Shown: in pieces, positions 1,347 through 10,818 of the stretch
Position numbering within the stretch: the first letter of the stretch is position 1
Layout: each line of letters opens with the position of its first letter
DNA from: Aromatoleum anaerobium
GTDB taxonomy: Bacteria > Pseudomonadota > Gammaproteobacteria > Burkholderiales > Rhodocyclaceae
Direction of reading: 5' to 3'
NCBI RefSeq assembly: GCF_012910705.2
Contig: NZ_WTVG02000036.1
Span: 124,001-188,000 of the forward strand
DNA: 64,000 bases
The notes under the pieces: model-generated
Told to the model about the DNA's origin: nothing
The model's database searches: none
Seen by the model: the letters and a program-made list of their open reading frames with translations, nothing else
Position numbers and translations under genes: made by a program

Positions 1347-2381
1347 TCAGGCGGGTTGTGCGTGAACGGGGATCTCCGGCCGGCTGCGCTTCTCCGGGTA
1401 ATAGCACATGTAACCGCTCGCGCAGTGGCTCGGCGCGTCGCGCAGTCCGACCGCGCATTCGCGGACTTTCGGCTCCGGTTCGCCGTCCTCGATACGGCGC
1501 AATACCTCATGGACGAGTTCGACGCTCTTCACCTTGCGTTCGCTCGCCCCTTCGCGCCCGGCGATCTTCACCGAATGCACGCCCGCCGCGTGCATCGCCG
1601 GCATCGCGCACAGGCCGCACGGGCCCCACGGGTAGCCGTTCGGCGCAACCGAAAAACCGTTGCCGAAGCGATACCACAGCCAGCGCTTGTAGTCCTGGTC
1701 GTTCTTTTCCAGCCGCCGCAGCGCCCGTTCCGCAGGCGCTTCGCCGCTCGCGGCGCGGTATTCGAACTGGTAGTTGTCGATGCAGATCGGGCCGCCCTTG
1801 TTCATCGGCAGATGCACGGTATGGCACGTGCCCTCCTCGAACACGCAGCCGTCGTTGAGGACGAAGGCTTCGATGTCGAGTTCGGGGAGTTCGGTCGCGA
1901 TCGCGGAGATTTCCGCAACGGTGACGTCGCGCGGCAGGATGATGCGGCGCGCGCCGAGCTGCGCGAAAAAGCGCGCCGATTCGACGTTGCGGCAGGTGGC
2001 CACCGAACTGACGTGGATCGGGAGCTCCGGCACGTTCGCCGCGAGCGAGGCGATCAGCGAGATGTCGGCGACGATCGCGGCGTTGCCGCCGATGCTGCGA
2101 AAGCGCGCGCCGATTTCGGTCAGCGCGTCCAGATGCTGCTCGCCGTATTGCTGCGCGTTGAGGACGAGGAACACTTCGGCATCGAGCGTGTGCGCCTTGT
2201 CGATGACGCGTTCGAGGTCGGCATAGCCGTTGAGGTTGCCGAATACGCGGCGATTGACGCCCGAGGTGTTGAAGCGCCGGACCCAGTCCGGCGGCACGAC
2301 GCCGCAATAGAGCTCGCGCGCGCCGGCCCGCACCAGCGGTTCGACTTCGGCAGGCGTGCTGATCGGGGCGGTGATTTTCAT
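1347..2381 (-). CDS. U32-family 4Fe-4S protein, UbiU-like
   Basis: A 344-residue protein starting at ATG 2381; an upstream in-frame TTG at 2420 would overlap the previous gene. It has the U32 barrel layout: an N-terminal AGARELYCGV segment, IHVSS near 122, IILPRDVTV near 147, then cysteines C179-x6-C186, C200 and the C255/C258 pair, followed by AGVHSVKIAGREG. The C-x6-C spacing and the later cysteines match the cluster ligands of E. coli UbiU (C169, C176, C193, C232). Characterised UbiU/UbiV, TrhP and RlhA are hydroxylation enzymes, the first pair being O2-independent. Here it lies with a UbiV-like partner inside a quinohemoprotein amine dehydrogenase operon without UbiT. A role in hydroxylating the CTQ tryptophan is inferred, not shown. 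Confidence 0.8.
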   Translation of the reverse strand: MKITAPISTPAEVEPLVRAGARELYCGVVPPDWVRRFNTSGVNRRVFGNLNGYADLERVIDKAHTLDAEVFLVLNAQQYGEQHLDALTEIGARFRSIGGNAAIVADISLIASLAANVPELPIHVSSVATCRNVESARFFAQLGARRIILPRDVTVAEISAIATELPELDIEAFVLNDGCVFEEGTCHTVHLPMNKGGPICIDNYQFEYRAASGEAPAERALRRLEKNDQDYKRWLWYRFGNGFSVAPNGYPWGPCGLCAMPAMHAAGVHSVKIAGREGASERKVKSVELVHEVLRRIEDGEPEPKVRECAVGLRDAPSHCASGYMCYYPEKRSRPEIPVHAQPA

Positions 2382-2400
2382 GCGTGGGGGTTGTTTCACT

Positions 2401-3372
2401 CTAGGCTCCCGACAGGACAATACGGCTGACCCAGCCCTTCGCTACCGCCTCGGCGATTGCCGCGGTCATGCCCGGCGCGTGCCGGTAATACATCGTGTTG
2501 CCGCGCTGCGACGTCTCCAGCTCACGCGTGCCGGGGCGCGCCCCGACTTCGGAGAAGCCGAGGCATTCGCGGCGGCACCGGTGGCCGGGCGAGAATTTTT
2601 CCGGCACATCAAGCGCGAGCGAACCGAGCTTGCAGATGCGACCTTTGGCGATGTAGCCGTAGGGCGCGCGCACGCCGACCGGGAAGTCGATGCCGGCATA
2701 CATGTCGGCTGCGCCGAACGGCGGGAAGTCGAGTTCCAGGCGGCCGATGCCCAAATTGTCGAGGATCTCGCGGAACGGACCGGCGCGCAGGCCGTTCGGG
2801 TACATGCGCGCCCACGTCGCGGACGGCAGCCGCGGGTCCTTCAGCATCTTCCCGAGCAGCCGCCCGGCGACCGGCCGCAGACCCGGGAATTCGCGCTGCA
2901 CGACGCGCGCGACGCCCCAGTCGTTGACGGTCACTTCGGCGCCCGCGGGCAGGCGCGCGAGCGCGGCGCGAAGCGGCTCGAACAGGCTGTCGCAGGCGAT
3001 CGGCGTGACGAGGCCGAACGTGACTCCCCAGCGCTCGCAGAGGGCCACGGCGCGATCGATCGCCTCGATGCTCGGCAGCAGGTGCTCGCAGAACTCGCTG
3101 CCGAGGAAGAAATGCGTCGGCTCGGCGTCGTCGGGCAGCGTGACGCACTGTCGGGCGTCGCCGAGCCGTTCGAGATAGTCGTCGCGCGTGACACGCTCCT
3201 GGCGCGCGAACGCGGCCAGCTCACGCTCGTCGACGAGCGCAAAGCCAAGCTCGATCGGGCCAGCCGGAGGTTTTGGCGGAATGGAAAGGTCGGGGTGGGG
3301 GTCGGGGTCGGGGTCGGTGTCATGAATCGGTCTCCGCGATTCTTCTGTTTTCGCGCCCCTGCCAGGTGGCAA
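2401..3372 (-). CDS. U32-family protein, UbiV-like partner
   Basis: About 300 residues of homology begin near GPIELGFAL (residue 38 from the TTG at 3372). The segment FFLGSEFC (C95) lines up with the YLGEAVC of UbiV, and C247, C266 and C270 (C-x3-C) match UbiV C180, C193 and C197, so a 4Fe-4S cluster is likely. TVNDWGVARVVQREF corresponds to UbiV's EASDLGVVNM region. The gene lies 19 bp upstream of the UbiU-like gene, so the two probably form a heterodimer. The start is uncertain: the only in-frame start is TTG 3372, inside qhpE. The ATG at 3323 that overlaps the qhpE stop is in another frame, and a GACCCC repeat lies between. A frame error or shift there is possible. Confidence 0.75.
   Translation of the reverse strand: MPPGRGAKTEESRRPIHDTDPDPDPHPDLSIPPKPPAGPIELGFALVDERELAAFARQERVTRDDYLERLGDARQCVTLPDDAEPTHFFLGSEFCEHLLPSIEAIDRAVALCERWGVTFGLVTPIACDSLFEPLRAALARLPAGAEVTVNDWGVARVVQREFPGLRPVAGRLLGKMLKDPRLPSATWARMYPNGLRAGPFREILDNLGIGRLELDFPPFGAADMYAGIDFPVGVRAPYGYIAKGRICKLGSLALDVPEKFSPGHRCRRECLGFSEVGARPGTRELETSQRGNTMYYRHAPGMTAAIAEAVAKGWVSRIVLSGA
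3292..3318. repeat. Imperfect GGGGTC hexanucleotide repeat at the UbiV-like gene's 5' end
   Basis: About four units of GGGGTC (GACCCC on the coding strand) encode the DPDPDPHPD stretch before the U32 domain. Whole-unit changes keep frame, but slippage in the C runs would join or separate the ATG at 3323 and the U32 frame. Confidence 0.8.
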
Positions 3373-4048
3373 AGGCCGCGAGGTGGTCGACGAGCCCGCG
3401 AAGGCCCGCGTCGGGGTGCTGCATGAGGTGATGCGCGACGATGCCGGTAAAGCGCGCCGCGGCCATGCTCGCGCCGCCCGGGGCTCCGCCGGGCGCGTCG
3501 GGACAGGTTCCCCACGCGGCGCCGGCTACGCTCGCCGGGTCAAGCCGCGACCATTGACCGGGAGCGCAGCGCGCATCACCGCTCACCGCGAGCACGCCGG
3601 GGTAACGCGCCGGATAGACCGGCGCGCCGCGCGCCGGCGCTGCGGCGACGAGCACCACGCCCTGCCCCACGGCCCGCTCGCAGGCTTCGCGCAGCACGCG
3701 GCGGTCGTCGGCAAGGCCGAGGCTCAGGTTGACGACCCGGGCCCCTTCGGCGACGCACCAGTCGATCGCGGCGGCGACGAGGCGCGGCGTCGCGGGTCGG
3801 GTAGCGGTGGCGACGCGGGCGTCGAGCAGGCAGGCGGCCGGCGCCGCATCGAGGACCAGCGCGGCGACGCATTCACCGTGCGGCAGCGCACGTCCGTGCG
3901 GCGCTTCGCAGCGCACGACCCCATCGGACTCGGCGCCATCGGACTCGGCGCCATCGAAGTCGCCGCTGGCGAACTGCGCCGCGGCGTGCAGCGCCGCCGG
4001 CGGCACGCGCTCGAAACCGCCATCGACGACGCCGACGCGCAGTTTCAT
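3320..4048 (-). CDS. qhpE: Subtilisin-like protease QhpE
   Basis: A compact 242-residue S8-type serine protease. The triad is visible as D9 in VGVVDGG, H57 in PHGEC and S194 in GGASMAA. There is no signal peptide, in keeping with a cytoplasmic enzyme. In characterised Qhp systems QhpE removes the leader of the gamma subunit after radical-SAM crosslinking and before export; the residue-28/29 junction of the QhpC encoded here is the expected site. The ATG at 4048 overlaps the stop of the ABC transporter gene (ATGA), so translation is coupled. A 15-bp duplication gives a GAESDGAESDG insert between Asp and His. QhpE assignment rests on family and operon position. Confidence 0.9.
   Translation of the reverse strand: MKLRVGVVDGGFERVPPAALHAAAQFASGDFDGAESDGAESDGVVRCEAPHGRALPHGECVAALVLDAAPAACLLDARVATATRPATPRLVAAAIDWCVAEGARVVNLSLGLADDRRVLREACERAVGQGVVLVAAAPARGAPVYPARYPGVLAVSGDARCAPGQWSRLDPASVAGAAWGTCPDAPGGAPGGASMAAARFTGIVAHHLMQHPDAGLRGLVDHLAAFATWQGRENRRIAETDS
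3921..3950. repeat. Two tandem 15-bp copies inside qhpE
   Basis: The unit ccatcggactcggcg occurs twice in a row and begins a third copy. It encodes a repeated acidic AESDG loop between the catalytic Asp and His. Confidence 0.85.
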
Positions 4049-5763
4049 ACGGCCCTCAGCAGCGGCGCCAGCGGTCGCGCCGGCGGCTGCTCGACGAGCG
4101 CGCCGTCACGCAGCTCGACGACGCCGTCGAGCTCTCCGACGGATGCGAGGTTGTGCGTGATGACGATGCGGGTACGCCCGGCGAACACGCGGTCGACCGC
4201 CATGACGATCGCTTGGGCGACCGGCAGATCGAGCCCGGAGGTTGTCTCGTCGAGGATCAGCACCGCCGGGTCCTGCAGGATCGCGCGGGCGAGCGCGATG
4301 CGCAGTCGTTCGCCGCGGGACAGCGCCGACGCCGACGCGCCGACTGCCTTGTCGAGGCCGCCGGCGTGGGCGAAGCGGGCGAGACCGGCGAGATCGAGCG
4401 CGCGCAGCAGCGCCGGCTCGTCGGCATCCGGCGCGACGAAGCGCAGGTTGTCGCGCACGCTGCCGGGCATCAGCACCGGGTCCTGGTCGACGACGACGAC
4501 GCGCCGGCGCAGTTCGGCGAGATCGAGCCGGTCGAGCCGCACCCCGTCGAGCAGGATGTGGCCGGCGCCCGGATCGTAATGACGCTGCAGCAGGTCGATC
4601 AGCGTCGATTTGCCGGCCCCGGACGCGCCGATCAGCGCGAGCTTGCGGCCGGCCGGAATGTCGAGCGACGCGCCGTCGAGCACGCGCGCCTCGCCGTAGC
4701 CGAAACGCACGTCGACGAGTCGGAGGTCGCCGCGCACCGGCTGCGCGAGCGCGACCGGCTGCGCCGGCGACGTGACCGTCGGCAATTCAGCGGCCAGTTC
4801 GCGGATGCGCTGCAGGCTGACTTTCGCCCGCTGCCAGCCCATGAAAACGCCCGCCGCGGTCTGCAGCGGACCGGCCGCACGGGTTGTGTAGGCGATGAAC
4901 GCGACGACGACGCCGACCGTCAGCTCGCCCGCCGCCGCGAGGCTGCCGCCGACCGCGAACACCAGCAGCACGCCGAGCCCGGACAGGATGCGCTGCACGC
5001 CCCCGGCGCCGAGCGAGGCGACCTGCGAGCGGCGCAGCGCCGCGAAATAATCGCCGTGATGCGCGCGCAGCTCCGCCTCCTGCCGCGCGCCGGCATTCGT
5101 CGCCTGGATGAACTTCATTGCGCGCAGCGATTCGACGAAAAAACTCGACATCGCCGCGCTCTGCTGCCGCACCGCCTGCGCGCTGCGTTCGAGCCACGGC
5201 CGCGACCCGAGCAGCGCCGCGACATGCAGCGGCACCAGCGCGAACACCAGCGCCGTCAGCAGCGGGCTCAGCGACAGCATCAGCGCCAGCGCGACGACCA
5301 GCGAGAACGCCGCGTTGAGGAGACCCATCGGCGCGTCGATCGCAAAACGCTGCACCTCGGCGACATCGCCGTCGAGCCGCGACAGGATCTCGCCGCCGCG
5401 GGTGCGCGCGTAGTACGTCGGCGCCAGCGTCTGGAGGTGGCGGTAGATCTGCTCGCGCAGGCCGAACAGCACGTGCGCGGACAGCTTCAGATACGCGAGC
5501 CGGGAAACGGCCTCGACCGCGACGCCGGCGACAAGCAGCGCGAGGAACACGCCGCACAACTGCAGCACCACGTCCATGCGCCCGCCGACGATGCCGTCGT
5601 CGACGAGGCGCTGCGTGAGATATGGCGGCAGCAACGCGGCCCCCGACGCGAGGAAGGACAGCACGACGATGCCCGCTGCCGCGCCCGCGCGCCCGCGCAC
5701 CGTCGGCCACGCCCACGCGAGCGCCTGCAGCGGCAGCGACCCCTTTTTCCGCAGCGCGATCAC
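4045..5763 (-). CDS. qhpF: ABC transporter QhpF (fused membrane and ATPase domains)
   Basis: A 572-residue half transporter. About five or six membrane segments fill residues 30-310, then an ATPase domain with Walker A GASGAGKST (379-387), signature LSRGE (481-485) and Walker B ILDETTSGLD (from 503). QhpF exporters are known to carry the crosslinked, processed gamma subunit to the periplasm. Start is GTG 5763, preceded by GAGGAG that overlaps the end of qhpB. The gene sits between qhpB and qhpE with ATGA overlap to qhpE. A general lipid or peptide exporter would look similar; context decides the call. Confidence 0.88.
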   Translation of the reverse strand: MIALRKKGSLPLQALAWAWPTVRGRAGAAAGIVVLSFLASGAALLPPYLTQRLVDDGIVGGRMDVVLQLCGVFLALLVAGVAVEAVSRLAYLKLSAHVLFGLREQIYRHLQTLAPTYYARTRGGEILSRLDGDVAEVQRFAIDAPMGLLNAAFSLVVALALMLSLSPLLTALVFALVPLHVAALLGSRPWLERSAQAVRQQSAAMSSFFVESLRAMKFIQATNAGARQEAELRAHHGDYFAALRRSQVASLGAGGVQRILSGLGVLLVFAVGGSLAAAGELTVGVVVAFIAYTTRAAGPLQTAAGVFMGWQRAKVSLQRIRELAAELPTVTSPAQPVALAQPVRGDLRLVDVRFGYGEARVLDGASLDIPAGRKLALIGASGAGKSTLIDLLQRHYDPGAGHILLDGVRLDRLDLAELRRRVVVVDQDPVLMPGSVRDNLRFVAPDADEPALLRALDLAGLARFAHAGGLDKAVGASASALSRGERLRIALARAILQDPAVLILDETTSGLDLPVAQAIVMAVDRVFAGRTRIVITHNLASVGELDGVVELRDGALVEQPPARPLAPLLRAV

Positions 5764-5776
5764 GCGGCGGCACTCC

Positions 5777-6850
5777 TCAGCGCTTCACGACCCGCAGCCA
5801 TCCGATCGACTGGTCCGCGCCGCCCGGCATCATGATCTCGCCGGTCTTCTCCAGCGTCTCGGCGTCGTGGATGACGATCTTGTCGAGCGCCCCGCCGAGA
5901 TAGACCTCCTTGCCGTCGCCCGAGATGTTGACCGCGTAGAACGTCTGCTCGAGGTCGACGCGCTTGATCAGCTTGCCGGTTTCGGTATCGACTTTCGACA
6001 GCTGGTTCATGACGAGGAAAGCCTCGTTGCGGGCGGCCGGATTGACCACCGACGAGAACATCGCCGTCTGCGCGTTCTCGAACTCGACCGTCTTCAGCGT
6101 CTCGGTGTCGAGGTCGAACACCGCGATGCCGGCCTTGAACGCCTCGGCGGAATCGGGCGCGGCATCGGTCTTGGCGACGAAGTACGGAGTGCTCAGCGCG
6201 CGCGCCTGCTCGAACGTTCCCCACATCGCCAGGACGTCCGGCTCACCGAGGCCGGGACGGTCCCAGTGGCGGATCGGGAAAGTCTTCTCGATCGTCCCGC
6301 TGCGCGTGTTGAACAGATACATGTCCCAGCCGAGCGCGAGCAGGTGATCCTTGTTGCCGGTCGGCGCGAGGAGGCTGATGCGGCGCGGCGCCGGGAACGT
6401 GCGGCGCGGTTTCGCGCCCACCCCGTCGGCGGTATCGAACACTGCGATGTAGGTGTCCTCGACCTTGTATTCCGAGCGTCCGAGCACGACCGGCGCCTGG
6501 TGCACGTACAGCTCGCGCCCGTCCTCGCTGACGGCGGCGGCAAAAAAGCCCTTGATGCGCTTGCCGGGACTCGAGAAATCGGCGCGGAACACCTGCTTGC
6601 CGCTGTCGAGGTCGATGCCGACGACGCTTTCCATGCGGTTGGTCAGCACATAGGCGACCTTGCCGTCCTTCGGCACGGTGATCGTGCCGGGCACGCCGTC
6701 GCCGGGGATCGTGATCGAACGCACGACTTCGCGTTTGGCCGGATCGATGACATGCAGGGTGTTCGGCCGCGTCACCGTCAGCAGGTATTCCGCGGCGATC
6801 GCGGACGCCGACGCCGCGACACAGCACAGCGCAACGAGCAGTTTCTTCAT
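5777..6850 (-). CDS. qhpB: Quinohemoprotein amine dehydrogenase beta subunit QhpB
   Basis: A 357-residue secreted protein with a signal peptide (MKKLLVALCC...AIAA). Repeats such as LHVIDPAKREVVRSI and IVIHDAETLEKTGEI mark a seven-bladed beta-propeller, as in the known QHNDH beta subunit, which covers the active site with the gamma subunit in the periplasm. ATG 6850 lies five bases after the qhpC stop. Length fits the family (about 37-40 kDa). Other YVTN-type propellers look alike, but position between qhpC and qhpF makes this firm. Confidence 0.92.
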   Translation of the reverse strand: MKKLLVALCCVAASASAIAAEYLLTVTRPNTLHVIDPAKREVVRSITIPGDGVPGTITVPKDGKVAYVLTNRMESVVGIDLDSGKQVFRADFSSPGKRIKGFFAAAVSEDGRELYVHQAPVVLGRSEYKVEDTYIAVFDTADGVGAKPRRTFPAPRRISLLAPTGNKDHLLALGWDMYLFNTRSGTIEKTFPIRHWDRPGLGEPDVLAMWGTFEQARALSTPYFVAKTDAAPDSAEAFKAGIAVFDLDTETLKTVEFENAQTAMFSSVVNPAARNEAFLVMNQLSKVDTETGKLIKRVDLEQTFYAVNISGDGKEVYLGGALDKIVIHDAETLEKTGEIMMPGGADQSIGWLRVVKR

Positions 6851-6855
6851 GATGC

Positions 6856-7176
6856 TCAATCTCCCGGGAACAGGGTCTGCAGCTCGCGCCAGTCGCGCAG
6901 CGCCGAGTTCTTGCCGTCGGTCCAGTCGCGCGCGGAGTTCAGGCCGTCGGCGAGCTGCGCCGGCCACCAGCACGGATCGGTGCAGCCGTAGAGATCCGCC
7001 TCCATCGGCTGGCACAGGCTCGCCAGTCCGCCGAACGCGTCGATTTCCCAGCCCGGATCGAAAGTCGTCGTGCAGCCGACGACGCTGCTCATCAGCTGCA
7101 CTTCCTCGCCGTGGCCTTCCTGCACGGCGTGTTCGAGCAGCTGTGCCTTGTGGTTGAGGGCTCGCAAGCGTTTCAT
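6856..7176 (-). CDS. qhpC: Quinohemoprotein amine dehydrogenase gamma subunit precursor QhpC (CTQ)
   Basis: A 106-residue precursor starting at ATG 7176, overlapping the qhpD stop (ATGA). Cysteines are C35, C55, C65 and C69. With a 28-residue leader these become mature C7, C27, C37 and C41, exactly the family numbering. Partners are all present: E44 (mature 16), D61 (33), D77 (49) for thioether bridges and W71 (43) for cysteine tryptophylquinone with C65. The core [11 protein letters not shown] and [10 protein letters not shown] is the family signature. The leader has no Sec or Tat features, fitting QhpE cleavage and QhpF export. This is the catalytic subunit that takes electrons from primary amines. 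Confidence 0.97.
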
Positions 7177-8606
7177 TGTCTGGCACTCCTTTGTCCGTTG
7201 GAGGCGTTGAAATACGCCGGATTGGCGATCGCAATCTCGCCGAAGGCTTCGAGGCCGAACGCGATCCAGGCGCGGATCTGCTCGCAGTACTCGAATGTCG
7301 GCAGGAACGGGTCGCCGTAGCGGGAATACGATTCGTGGTAGCAGCCGCCGGCGCACAGGCTGCGCGCAGGGCACGTGCGGCACGCAGCATGCGGGTTCTG
7401 CGCGGCGCTGACGAAACCGGACAGCGACTCGCGCGCGATGCCGCTCGTCACGTCGCCGAACCCCGAGAAGTCGGAGTCGGAGCCGGTGAAGCGGTGGCAC
7501 AACGAGATCTTGCCGGTCGTGCCGACCGCGAGCAGGCCGACACCGGCGCCGCACGGCAGCACCTTGCGCGTCCCCATCCACAGGTCGGTCATCAACTGGT
7601 GCATGTTGCCGAAGCCGTGGCGCCGGCCGCGCTTGGCTTCGCTGACGTATTCGCGGCCGAGCGCCTGCATCGCCGCGAACACTTCGTCAAGCTCCTGCGG
7701 CGACAGCCCGACCGGGGAATCCGGCCCCGCTGTCGCCGGCGCGAAGCCGACCTCGAAGAAGCCGAGCTCGTCGTGCAGGTGCCGGTAAATGCCGGCGACG
7801 TCCACGTTGCCCGACGCGAGCGTGACGCGGGCGCCGACCGGGCGCGACTTGTAGCGTTGGAGCAGGCGCTGCACGCGCATCGCGACCGTCTTGTAGGTGC
7901 CGCCGCCGGCGATCGTGCGGCGATGCCGGTCGTGCTGCGCTTCGCCGCCGTCGATGCTGACGGTGATGCCGAAGCGGTGCGCGTCAAGGAAATCGATGAC
8001 ATCGTCGGTGAGCAGCGTCGCGTTGGTCGTCAGCGAGAACTCGACGTCCTTGCCAGCGGCCGCGCCCTTCTCTTCGGCGTATTCGACGAGGTCGCGGATC
8101 ACCGCGATGCGCGTCAGCGGCTCGCCGCCGAAGAACACCACTGCGACGCGCTCGTTCTCGCTCGCTTCGGCAAGCAGCAGGTCGATCGAGCGCGTGCCGG
8201 TCTGGTAGTCCATCACCGACGAGTTCTTCGGCGAAGTCAGGTCCTCGCGGTAGCAGTAGCTGCAGCCGAGGTTGCAGCCGGTCGTCAGCGTCAGCACGAG
8301 CGTCTTCAGCGGCGAGCGCTCGACCAGCCGCGGCGGGATCTCGTAGTGCTTCGGCTGCGGCGCGACGATCCCCAGCTCGATGAAGTCGCTGAGACTGTCG
8401 CACAGCTCGCCCGGCGAATAGCGCCCGTCAAAGCGCGCCTGGATGTCCTCGGCGGCGACTGCGGGCGTCGACTCGAACAGTCCGAGCAGGTCGGTCGCGG
8501 CCGGATCGAGCTCGAAGATCGACGTCGTCGGCACGTGCAGCAGGACATGCCGGCCGCCGGAGCGGATCGAACGATAGTTGTGGGCCTGCACCTGTAATGT
8601 CGTCAC
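7173..8606 (-). CDS. qhpD: Radical SAM/SPASM thioether-forming enzyme QhpD
   Basis: A 477-residue protein. The SAM cluster motif CNLGCSYC has cysteines 111, 115 and 118. The C-terminal SPASM region carries [14 protein letters not shown] and a last cysteine in FEYCEQ for auxiliary clusters. QhpD makes the three Cys-to-Glu/Asp thioether bonds in QhpC before cleavage and export. The N-terminal hundred residues resemble a peptide-binding RRE-like region. Start is GTG 8606 after AAGGAG at seven bases. The gene lies 12 bp after qhpA and overlaps qhpC by four bases, which should match enzyme and substrate synthesis. Confidence 0.95.
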
Positions 8607-8618
8607 GGGATGTCTCCT

Positions 8619-10265
8619 TCAGCGCAGCGGTGTCGGGTTCCAGCGCTGCGCAACCACCATCAGCTGGCCCTTGCCGTTCAGCGTCTGGTCGCCGTCGGCA
8701 ACCGTCGCGATGACGGACAGGTTGCCGACGTTGTTGATGCCGCCGCGTCGCAGCGGATTGGGACCACCGAACGACGGCACGAACTGGCCGTGCGGCGCCA
8801 TGTGACCGGCGTAGCGCGCGTCCTCGTCGTGGCGCGCCCGGTCGTCGAACGGCTCGGTCGACCACGTCGCGGGGACGCTGCCGAGGCGGATGTCGTCGTC
8901 GGTGCCCGGTTTGCCGTCCGCGCCGTTGAGGAAGGCGATGGCGTCGAACTGCGCGCTCATCGGCGCGACAGTGCCGCCGCCGAGCCGCGCGACCGCGAAC
9001 GCAGGCTCGACGCGCACTGTGTCGAAGCGACGGAACACCGCCACGGTCTGCGCCGACTCGCGGCCGCCGACCACGACCTTGCGCACTCCTTCGGGCGCAT
9101 CGACCGCGACGCGGACGCGCACCTTCAGCTCGCCGGGCGACTTGCCGAGCCATTCGACGACTTCGATGCCGGGACCGAGGTCGACTTTCGCATCGAGCGC
9201 GACGCCGGCGAGCGTCACGTCGGTCGTCGCCCCGTTGCGCAGCATCCGCGGCGTGACCGCGACGAGCTCGTTCTTCACCGCGTCGTCGGCGCGCACCGCT
9301 TCGAAGCGGGCCCCGATCTCGTCGGCGCCCTTGAGGAACCAACGTCCCGACATGCGCGAACCATCCGGGCTCAGCGCGAAGATCGAGCGCGTGTCCTCGT
9401 TGCCGAGCTTCGCCGAGCCGCGCCATTCATAGCCGGTGTAGACGATCGCGTCGCCCTGCCCGCGCACCGTGTTGCCGGGGCCAAAGCGCAGCTCGTAGCT
9501 CACTTCGTAGCGATCCGGCCCGGCGGCCCGGGCTTTCATCGTGCCGGTGTACGCCCCCCAGCCCGGGCGCTCGCCGGCGACGACCCAGCTCCCCGTCGCG
9601 GGGCGGTGCTTCGCGCTGCGCCATTCGCGCCAGGCCGGCGTGTCCTTCGGATACAGCGCCGCCAGCCGCGCCGGCAACTGGTCGCGGGCGATCTCCCACC
9701 AGTTGCGGTCGCGGCCCATCGCCGAGTATTCCGCGCTCGGGAACTGGCCCAGGTGCGTGTGCATCAGCTTGCGCCATTCGCCCTCGTCGCGCCGCTGCAG
9801 CGCGACGCGTCCATAGCTGTGGCAACGGCCGCACATCTGCGCCATCTCCTCGTCGGGTGCGGTGTCCTGCATGTTCGGCCGGCGCTCGGTGAGGGGACGG
9901 TAGGGCGCACTCTCCGACGGCGCGAGGCCCTGCCGGTCGGCGAGGTACTTGACGATCGTCTGCCGCTCGCCGGGCGTCAGTTCGACCTTGTGCCAGATGC
10001 CCATGCGCACGACCGTCATGTCCCAGCCTTCCGGGCTCTTGCGCATCTCGGAGATGCGCGTCAGCTTGCCGTTGTCCAGGTGACAGGCGCCGCACTTCGC
10101 CTCGATCAGCCGCTGTGCCGCGGCGTCACCGTTCGCCGCGTGCGCCGCACCAGCCATGCCCATTGCGACGGCCAGCACGCCGGCGATCCTTGCACCACAC
10201 TGCATCGCGTCGCGAATCCCGTCGCGAACCCCTTCGCGAAACGCCTCGCTCATTTGCGCCTTCAC
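8619..10265 (-). CDS. qhpA: Quinohemoprotein amine dehydrogenase alpha subunit QhpA (diheme)
   Basis: A secreted diheme c protein of about 548 residues. A signal peptide ends at AGAAHA, then heme motifs CGACH (58-62) and CGRCH (145-149), followed by several beta-rich domains as in known alpha subunits. The hemes pass electrons from CTQ to a periplasmic acceptor such as cytochrome c or azurin. Start choice: GTG 10265 has GGAGG five bases upstream; an ATG at 10253 is possible with a weaker AAGG site. Two heme motifs, size and operon place identify it. Relatives oxidise 2-phenylethylamine, benzylamine, tyramine or butylamine; the substrate here cannot be read from sequence. Confidence 0.93.
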   Translation of the reverse strand: MKAQMSEAFREGVRDGIRDAMQCGARIAGVLAVAMGMAGAAHAANGDAAAQRLIEAKCGACHLDNGKLTRISEMRKSPEGWDMTVVRMGIWHKVELTPGERQTIVKYLADRQGLAPSESAPYRPLTERRPNMQDTAPDEEMAQMCGRCHSYGRVALQRRDEGEWRKLMHTHLGQFPSAEYSAMGRDRNWWEIARDQLPARLAALYPKDTPAWREWRSAKHRPATGSWVVAGERPGWGAYTGTMKARAAGPDRYEVSYELRFGPGNTVRGQGDAIVYTGYEWRGSAKLGNEDTRSIFALSPDGSRMSGRWFLKGADEIGARFEAVRADDAVKNELVAVTPRMLRNGATTDVTLAGVALDAKVDLGPGIEVVEWLGKSPGELKVRVRVAVDAPEGVRKVVVGGRESAQTVAVFRRFDTVRVEPAFAVARLGGGTVAPMSAQFDAIAFLNGADGKPGTDDDIRLGSVPATWSTEPFDDRARHDEDARYAGHMAPHGQFVPSFGGPNPLRRGGINNVGNLSVIATVADGDQTLNGKGQLMVVAQRWNPTPLR

Positions 10266-10335
10266 ATCGTCCTCCGTTTCCACCCGTGTGGTTCTTCGTG
10301 TTGAGGAATGCTCATCGTTGCGCCTTTCGTCCCTG

Positions 10336-10818
10336 TCAGTTTCCGCCGGCGCCATCGTCGAGCAGCCCGGCGCGGGCCACCGCGGCGGCTCGCGCCGCAT
10401 CCGCGGCTTCCGGCCCGATCTCGAGCTGCTTCGCGAGCCGGTTCATCAGGCGGTCCTCCAGCCCGACGAGATCCCCGTCGGCGTAGGCCACCTCCCATAA
10501 CATCGTCAACACCTCCTGGCGCTCGGCCGCGTCGAAGCCCGCGCGCACCGCTTCGCCGAACTCCCAGTCGTCGAGCACCTCGGCGAACCGTTCATCGGCG
10601 ACGGCCACGAGCTGGCGTGCGACGTCCTCCGTCAAGCCGAAATGCTCGTGCAGCAGGCGTCCGACGGCCGCGTGTTCCCGCTCGGTGGCGCGGTGGTCGA
10701 TGTACATCGCTTCGAGCAGCAGGACCGCGACGGCAATATGGCGTCGTTCGAACGGACCGGTTTCCAGCCCTTCGGGCTGGAGCTCGCCGGACAGCAGCGC
10801 CATCAGTTTTGTCAGCAT
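10336..10818 (-). CDS. TerB-like protein
   Basis: A 160-residue soluble, mostly helical protein with the TerB/DjlA-like pattern of acidic, metal-binding-type helices (LLLEAMYIDHRATEREHAAV near 33 and AYADGDLVGLEDRLMNRLA near 111). TerB domains occur in tellurite-resistance clusters and in DjlA; the isolated form (COG4103) has no settled function. It is the gene just before qhpA and shares its operon. Nothing else of a ter cluster is present, so a role in tellurite resistance is not supported. Confidence 0.75.
   Translation of the reverse strand: MLTKLMALLSGELQPEGLETGPFERRHIAVAVLLLEAMYIDHRATEREHAAVGRLLHEHFGLTEDVARQLVAVADERFAEVLDDWEFGEAVRAGFDAAERQEVLTMLWEVAYADGDLVGLEDRLMNRLAKQLEIGPEAADAARAAAVARAGLLDDGAGGN

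Follow-up and report, generated by a model that had tools for sequence, protein, structure and literature searches.

A candidate two-protein U32-type hydroxylase in place of QhpG in the QHNDH operon of Aromatoleum anaerobium

The stretch of Aromatoleum anaerobium DNA analysed here (the window, 64,000 nucleotides) encodes quinohemoprotein amine dehydrogenase (QHNDH) on its minus strand. NCBIfam models, all scoring above their cut-offs, name five proteins in one run of minus-strand genes: QhpA, the di-heme alpha subunit (8619–10400; TIGR03908, 788.4 bits, cut-off 274.35); QhpD, the radical SAM thioether maturase (7173–8606; TIGR03906, 776.4 bits, cut-off 453); QhpC, the gamma subunit with the precursor residues of cysteine tryptophylquinone, CTQ (6856–7176; NF037958, 136.6 bits, cut-off 50); QhpB, the beta subunit (5777–6850; TIGR03907, 522.9 bits, cut-off 223.2); and QhpE, a subtilisin-like protease (3320–4048; NF049966, 228.9 bits, cut-off 165). 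With all three subunits, the maturase and QhpE recognized, the run is a QHNDH (qhp) operon. QhpB and QhpC were scanned as 5777–6796 and 6856–7128, and their ATG starts at 6850 and 7176 were taken from the frame. The ABC exporter gene qhpF (4045–5763) was assigned from Pfam ABC_membrane and ABC_tran matches and from homologues in other qhp operons. The window QhpD is 98% identical to that of A. buckelii. Just upstream of qhpA lies a TerB-domain gene (10336–10818, minus strand, 98 bits), with homologues near qhp genes in other Aromatoleum loci and in genome G464.

The genes run in the order qhpA-D-C-B-F-E and are followed on the same strand by two genes of another kind, U32V (2401–3323) and U32U (1347–2381), for which we propose the provisional names qhpV and qhpU. 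The original prediction was that this operon has qhpA, D, C, B, F and E without a flavin monooxygenase, and that two open frames downstream of qhpE (2401–3372 and 1347–2420) encode proteins with the cluster-cysteine spacings of UbiV and UbiU. These points are borne out. Both frames are present, all 37 sequences of each protein share the spacings, and none of the nine window proteins scanned with Pfam and NCBIfam is a flavoprotein.

QhpG, a flavin-dependent peptidyl-Trp dihydroxylase, adds two oxygens that are not from water in a reaction started by O2 (PMC7876137). The QhpG route to CTQ depends on O2, whereas in Aromatoleum QHNDH is reported to initiate the breakdown of amines under anoxic conditions, going by the title of a study by Schmitt et al. 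(2019, J Bacteriol 201, e00281-19) on two QHNDHs in anaerobic aromatic-amine degradation by Aromatoleum aromaticum EbN1, which PMC11231019 and PMC10413684 cite. This suggests that Aromatoleum is a fitting host for an O2-independent route to CTQ. The window QhpC retains both CTQ-precursor residues, the Cys at 6984–6982 and the Trp at 6966–6964. In the numbering of the scanned fragment these are C49 and W55, spaced like Cys37 and Trp43 in PMC7876137. Both residues are invariant in QhpC from 67 of 67 genomes, including 25 that lack QhpG. CTQ is presumably still made in those 25 genomes, and something other than QhpG must therefore hydroxylate the Trp there.

U32U, a protein of 344 residues whose start is likely the ATG at 2381 rather than at 2420, is a U32-family member by Pfam Peptidase_U32 (PF01136; 150.8 bits, cut-off 22.4). 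The assignment is backed by its cysteines and by a clade of its own in the U32 tree described below. Four cysteines, C179-x6-C186, C200 and C255, match the cluster type of UbiU (C-x6-C, C, C). Unlike UbiU, the protein has three further cysteines, C258, C320 and C326, which are likewise invariant in all 37 sequences, the window copy included. These additional residues (window 1404–1610) might bind a second cluster. U32U and U32V are both predicted to adopt a TIM-barrel fold. The solved U32 member is 5d88, and PDB sequence searches found no usable relative, 5d88 itself appearing at E 0.18 for U32U. No match to U32U patterns was found in viral contigs.

U32V is the divergent partner. At E 0.001 it matches no model in either Pfam or NCBIfam and so falls outside PF01136; for this reason we call it U32-like rather than file it as a family member, the label resting on its cysteines, its predicted TIM barrel and its partner. 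The cysteines, GSEFC and C-x18-C-x3-C, are those conserved throughout the 37 sequences, a set drawn from 38 copies with Motiliproteus entered once (L162, not also L066). The initial description of U32V as UbiV-like holds for the four-cysteine pattern (C ... C, C-x3-C in UbiV), which a weak alignment superposes. In overall similarity the resemblance is weaker than first put forward, being negligible by profile (hhalign probability 7.2% and 4.8%): a UbiV profile does not detect U32V, and UbiV has C-x12-C-x3-C in place of C-x18-C-x3-C. Compared with U32U, hhalign gave 0.2% with alignments of 10 and 9 sequences and 90.9% only with 37-sequence alignments.

The predicted TTG start of U32V at 3372 fits the frame, which is open from there, but is unsafe. 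In 12 of the 13 other copies from the genus an in-frame ATG lies 64–74 codons before GSEFC, and the thirteenth (G304) is cut at its start region by a contig end. The window has an ATG at 3323, overlapping the qhpE stop, but as assembled it is not in frame with the body of U32V. This may reflect a mutation, an assembly slip in a short repeat, or the use of another start. A GACCCC repeat is present in the start region (3250–3330, minus strand).

The distribution of the pair links it to QHNDH. When a profile built from 10 U32V sequences was run over 297 genomes of the family, with up to seven candidates scored per genome, U32V was found in 29. QhpC (PF08992) occurs in 44 of the 297, and all 29 U32V genomes are among these 44, an overlap with a hypergeometric probability of 1.6e-29 when genomes are treated as independent. 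None of the 253 family genomes that lack QhpC gave a U32V match. Moreover, in a class-wide draw of 369 genomes (up to six candidates scored per genome), U32V and QhpC occur in exactly the same two. The U32V survey covered Pseudomonadota genomes, and some runs scored part of the first-look candidates, so that single misses are possible. In a phylum draw, 5 of 299 genomes had QhpD-model matches above the cut-off, and matches below it were left unused. Altogether 38 copies of the pair are known from 35 genomes. By coordinates read by eye, 30 of the 38 have a qhp gene no more than about 5 kb away, six share a contig with qhpC at a distance of 12–32 kb, and two are near the end of another contig.

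Could the pair nevertheless be a duplicated ubiquinone UbiU/UbiV that sits near the operon by chance and serves quinone synthesis? UbiU and UbiV (YhbU/YhbV) are likewise an adjacent two-protein pair with one clear U32 homologue, predicted TIM barrels and four cluster-type cysteines each. As reported in PMC6747719, each binds a 4Fe-4S cluster, and they hydroxylate without O2. By profile, U32U is indeed closest to UbiU (hhalign 99.8%). However, its 81.9 bits on the NCBIfam UbiU model NF047963 are far below the cut-off of 440 and place it outside that family, and the genome already has a separate UbiU/UbiV pair on contig 38. In a quick U32 tree, 31 U32U rows form one clade (SH-aLRT 100) on a long stem and 12 UbiU rows another (98); this tree used 31 of the 37 U32U sequences, six close Aromatoleum relatives having been dropped. 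The original prediction had raised the question of whether the pair would fall inside ubiquinone UbiU/UbiV, and the tree places U32U outside UbiU. The lack of U32V in family genomes without QhpC also speaks against a quinone role, and the pair differs from UbiU/UbiV in its link to qhp genes and in its supposed substrate, a protein Trp. We therefore regard a duplicated UbiU/UbiV as very improbable.

TrhP and RlhA hydroxylate RNA. These prephenate-dependent enzymes are also of the U32 family, and U32U reaches 99.7% against a TrhP-like profile, but it lies in a different clade from both (the labels TrhP-like and RlhA-like in our tree were assigned from profile similarity and length).

The pair and QhpG complement each other. 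With a 12-sequence QhpG profile, the 44 family genomes with QhpC divide into 22 that have the pair only, 15 that have QhpG only, seven that have both and none that has neither (Fisher p 1.5e-6, genomes treated as independent). QhpG was counted from full or split matches of at least 278 bits, up to 38 candidates being scored per genome; QhpG was taken as absent from G417 (63.5 bits) and as present in G425, where it is in two pieces, and in G491, where a contig end truncates it. When 23 genomes from outside the family draw are added, the 67 genomes comprise 25 with the pair only, 32 with QhpG only, 10 with both and none with neither. The NCBIfam QhpG model scores above its cut-off in none of the 25 pair-only genomes (up to 30 candidates scored per genome) and in all 18 QhpG-bearing genomes tested with it, namely the 10 with both and eight of the 32 with QhpG only.

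The count of 67 omits L056 (a 6.8 kb fragment), the plasmid records L069–L072, and L067 and L068, which turned out not to be QhpD. Six loci (L041, L043, L044, L045, L047 and L064) belong to genomes with match coordinates identical to those of family-draw genomes and were counted once. Also omitted is G312, a fragmentary Lysobacteraceae MAG that has no U32V and matches the NCBIfam QhpG model at 187.6 bits, below the cut-off. Its 3.2 kb qhp contig (L048) carries qhpA and qhpD 74–88% identical to those of the window, the QhpD fragment being 88% identical, and is perhaps misbinned.

The original prediction had envisaged mutual exclusion of QhpG and the pair across qhp operons. The complementarity stands, with no genome among the 67 lacking both, but strict exclusion is rejected by the 10 that have both. 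Genomes with both systems suggest aerobic and anaerobic modules side by side. On a quick QhpD tree, in which 20 of 64 inner branches are unsupported, the pair changes state at least eight times and QhpG at least 10 times, so the switch between them seems to have recurred. An independent-pairs test on the tree, with 5–6 pairs, found none opposite to expectation and was not significant (median p 0.25); the other trait was the same in about half of these pairs, and the sample is too small.

We also looked for a remote qhpG in the window's genome and found none. The best match to our own 12-sequence profile is 25 bits, and the best to NCBIfam QhpG (NF049967), among the 30 of 70 candidates scored, is 103.4 bits against a cut-off of 240. 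That top match is a GoxB/LodB-like protein on contig 13, which scores 103 bits to GoxB and 80.5 bits, or 103 in the genome scoring, to QhpG. It could cause confusion in reading this strain. It adjoins pieces of a GoxA/LodA-like CTQ oxidase (626000–645900 of contig 13). Transposase-like genes, including two that are identical, separate and flank the flavoprotein gene and the oxidase pieces, and the stretch is apparently a second CTQ system, broken. One may ask whether QhpG is replaced in this genome by a GoxB/LodB-type flavoprotein encoded away from the operon, leaving the pair another role, a reading to which this protein and a 179-bit NCBIfam QhpG match in G417, also a pair-only genome, lend some colour. 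Against it, such matches do not recur: in the other 23 pair-only genomes the NCBIfam QhpG model scores no higher than 62.5 bits or has no match at E 1e-10. We consider this explanation extremely improbable. A. toluolicum has a full QhpG (549 bits; L163, 9764–11182) next to an operon for RND efflux, and no further qhp gene was detected in the 19 kb of sequence analysed.

Gene order was compared across QhpD-bearing loci, comprising 28 from named genomes (26 with a true QhpD), others from plasmids (four of 45 records opened) and more from further genomes. The order QhpF-QhpE-QhpG occurs in 10 Oceanospirillum/Neptuniibacter loci, and QhpF-QhpE-U32V-U32U in five Aromatoleum/Azoarcus loci, one Rhodocyclaceae MAG and Sedimenticola selenatireducens. 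S. hydrogenitrophicus carries both in succession, as QhpF-QhpE-QhpG-U32V-U32U. QhpG is instead found upstream of qhpA in Caenispirillum, Paracoccus, Pseudomonas and Leisingera, so the slot after qhpE is common to some relatives only. A constant partner gene downstream of the pair was considered and rejected, the neighbours differing in the four loci examined. A very divergent qhp operon (L161; QhpC 36% and QhpD 34% identical) has the order A-D-C-B-U32V-U32U and no QhpG above the cut-off. In the Aromatoleum genome G422, both of the qhp operons present have a U32 pair nearby; the pair of the second operon lies some 2 kb upstream of qhpA and is encoded on the other strand. G422 also has one QhpG near the second operon, so that in a strain of this kind activity under anoxic conditions would not alone exclude QhpG.

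Taken together, co-occurrence, complementarity, the absence of a remote qhpG and the U32U tree support the central claim of the original prediction, that the pair stands in for QhpG as the CTQ hydroxylase. On this genomic evidence the pair is most likely a hydroxylase of the QhpC Trp and an alternative to QhpG. We think it probable that the pair is a dedicated two-protein Fe-S enzyme of U32 type that replaces QhpG in CTQ biogenesis independently of O2, probably with prephenate. The heterodimer, its 4Fe-4S clusters, the reaction, the O2 independence and the oxygen donor are what we infer from the genes, and prephenate as donor is a guess at the level of the family. QhpG would differ from it in using flavin and O2, and has no sequence relation to it (hhalign 0.1%); the two would share the same job on QhpC.

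We propose that QhpD would make the three thioether links in QhpC. The pair, by analogy with UbiU/UbiV, would next introduce the oxygens into the CTQ-precursor Trp independently of O2, probably with prephenate as donor, and the quinone and the Cys-Trp bond would then form as in the QhpG route. In genomes with both systems, QhpG might be used with air and the pair without air, as UbiIHF and UbiUV are for ubiquinone. With rather less confidence, we favour a fuller version in which the pair inserts both Trp oxygens in the cross-linked protein, with prephenate as donor and without O2, and the QhpG and U32 routes are interchangeable aerobic and anaerobic modules.

The pair's reaction is proposed from genomic data, and QhpG and the pair are found together in 10 of the 67 genomes. 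It is conceivable that the pair serves CTQ maturation otherwise, in forming the Cys-Trp thioether, oxidizing the dihydroxy form or in repair, and that another enzyme hydroxylates the Trp. We judge this improbable: 32 genomes have QhpG without the pair and 25 the pair without QhpG, no other candidate hydroxylase was seen among the scanned proteins of the window operon, and the genes downstream of the pair differ in the four loci examined. A second possibility is that the pair does hydroxylate the Trp but draws on water, another donor or traces of O2 rather than on an O2-independent reaction of the prephenate type. The ubiquinone hydroxyl made by U32 oxidases is reported in PMC11574389 to come from prephenate; the same paper leaves the exact chemistry open, supporting a role for prephenate in U32 enzymes generally while its transformation and direct enzyme evidence are still awaited. 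Nonetheless, the known U32 oxidases are O2-independent (PMC11574389 and PMC6747719), and for UbiUV this independence is reported to hold in the presence of O2 as well (PMC10470549). We give this second possibility a small chance.

Such an enzyme, if the proposal is right, would resolve how CTQ is supplied anaerobically in Aromatoleum. GoxB/LodB, which act on CTQ in the GoxA/LodA oxidases, and MauG, which acts on TTQ, also make tryptophylquinone cofactors, but they are flavin or heme enzymes and not of the U32 kind. To our knowledge, the pair would provide the first O2-independent tryptophylquinone route and the first case of a U32 enzyme hydroxylating a residue in a protein. The literature searched, which covered few subscription journals, held no prior report of U32 proteins with QHNDH or of UbiU with a tryptophylquinone. 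If the proposal is true, protein side chains would join quinone and RNA as targets of U32 hydroxylases, and QhpC would offer a soluble peptide substrate for studying the unsettled U32 chemistry.

Other U32 arrangements came to light among relatives. Three U32-family genes are clustered in A. diolicum (L235, 5516–10480) and in A. tolulyticum (L236, 4101–9078), and the U32 tree groups them as a separate clade. In a Rhodocyclaceae MAG (L239, 1828–3831), matches to UbiU and UbiV lie in one open frame of 667 residues, possibly a fused UbiU-UbiV.
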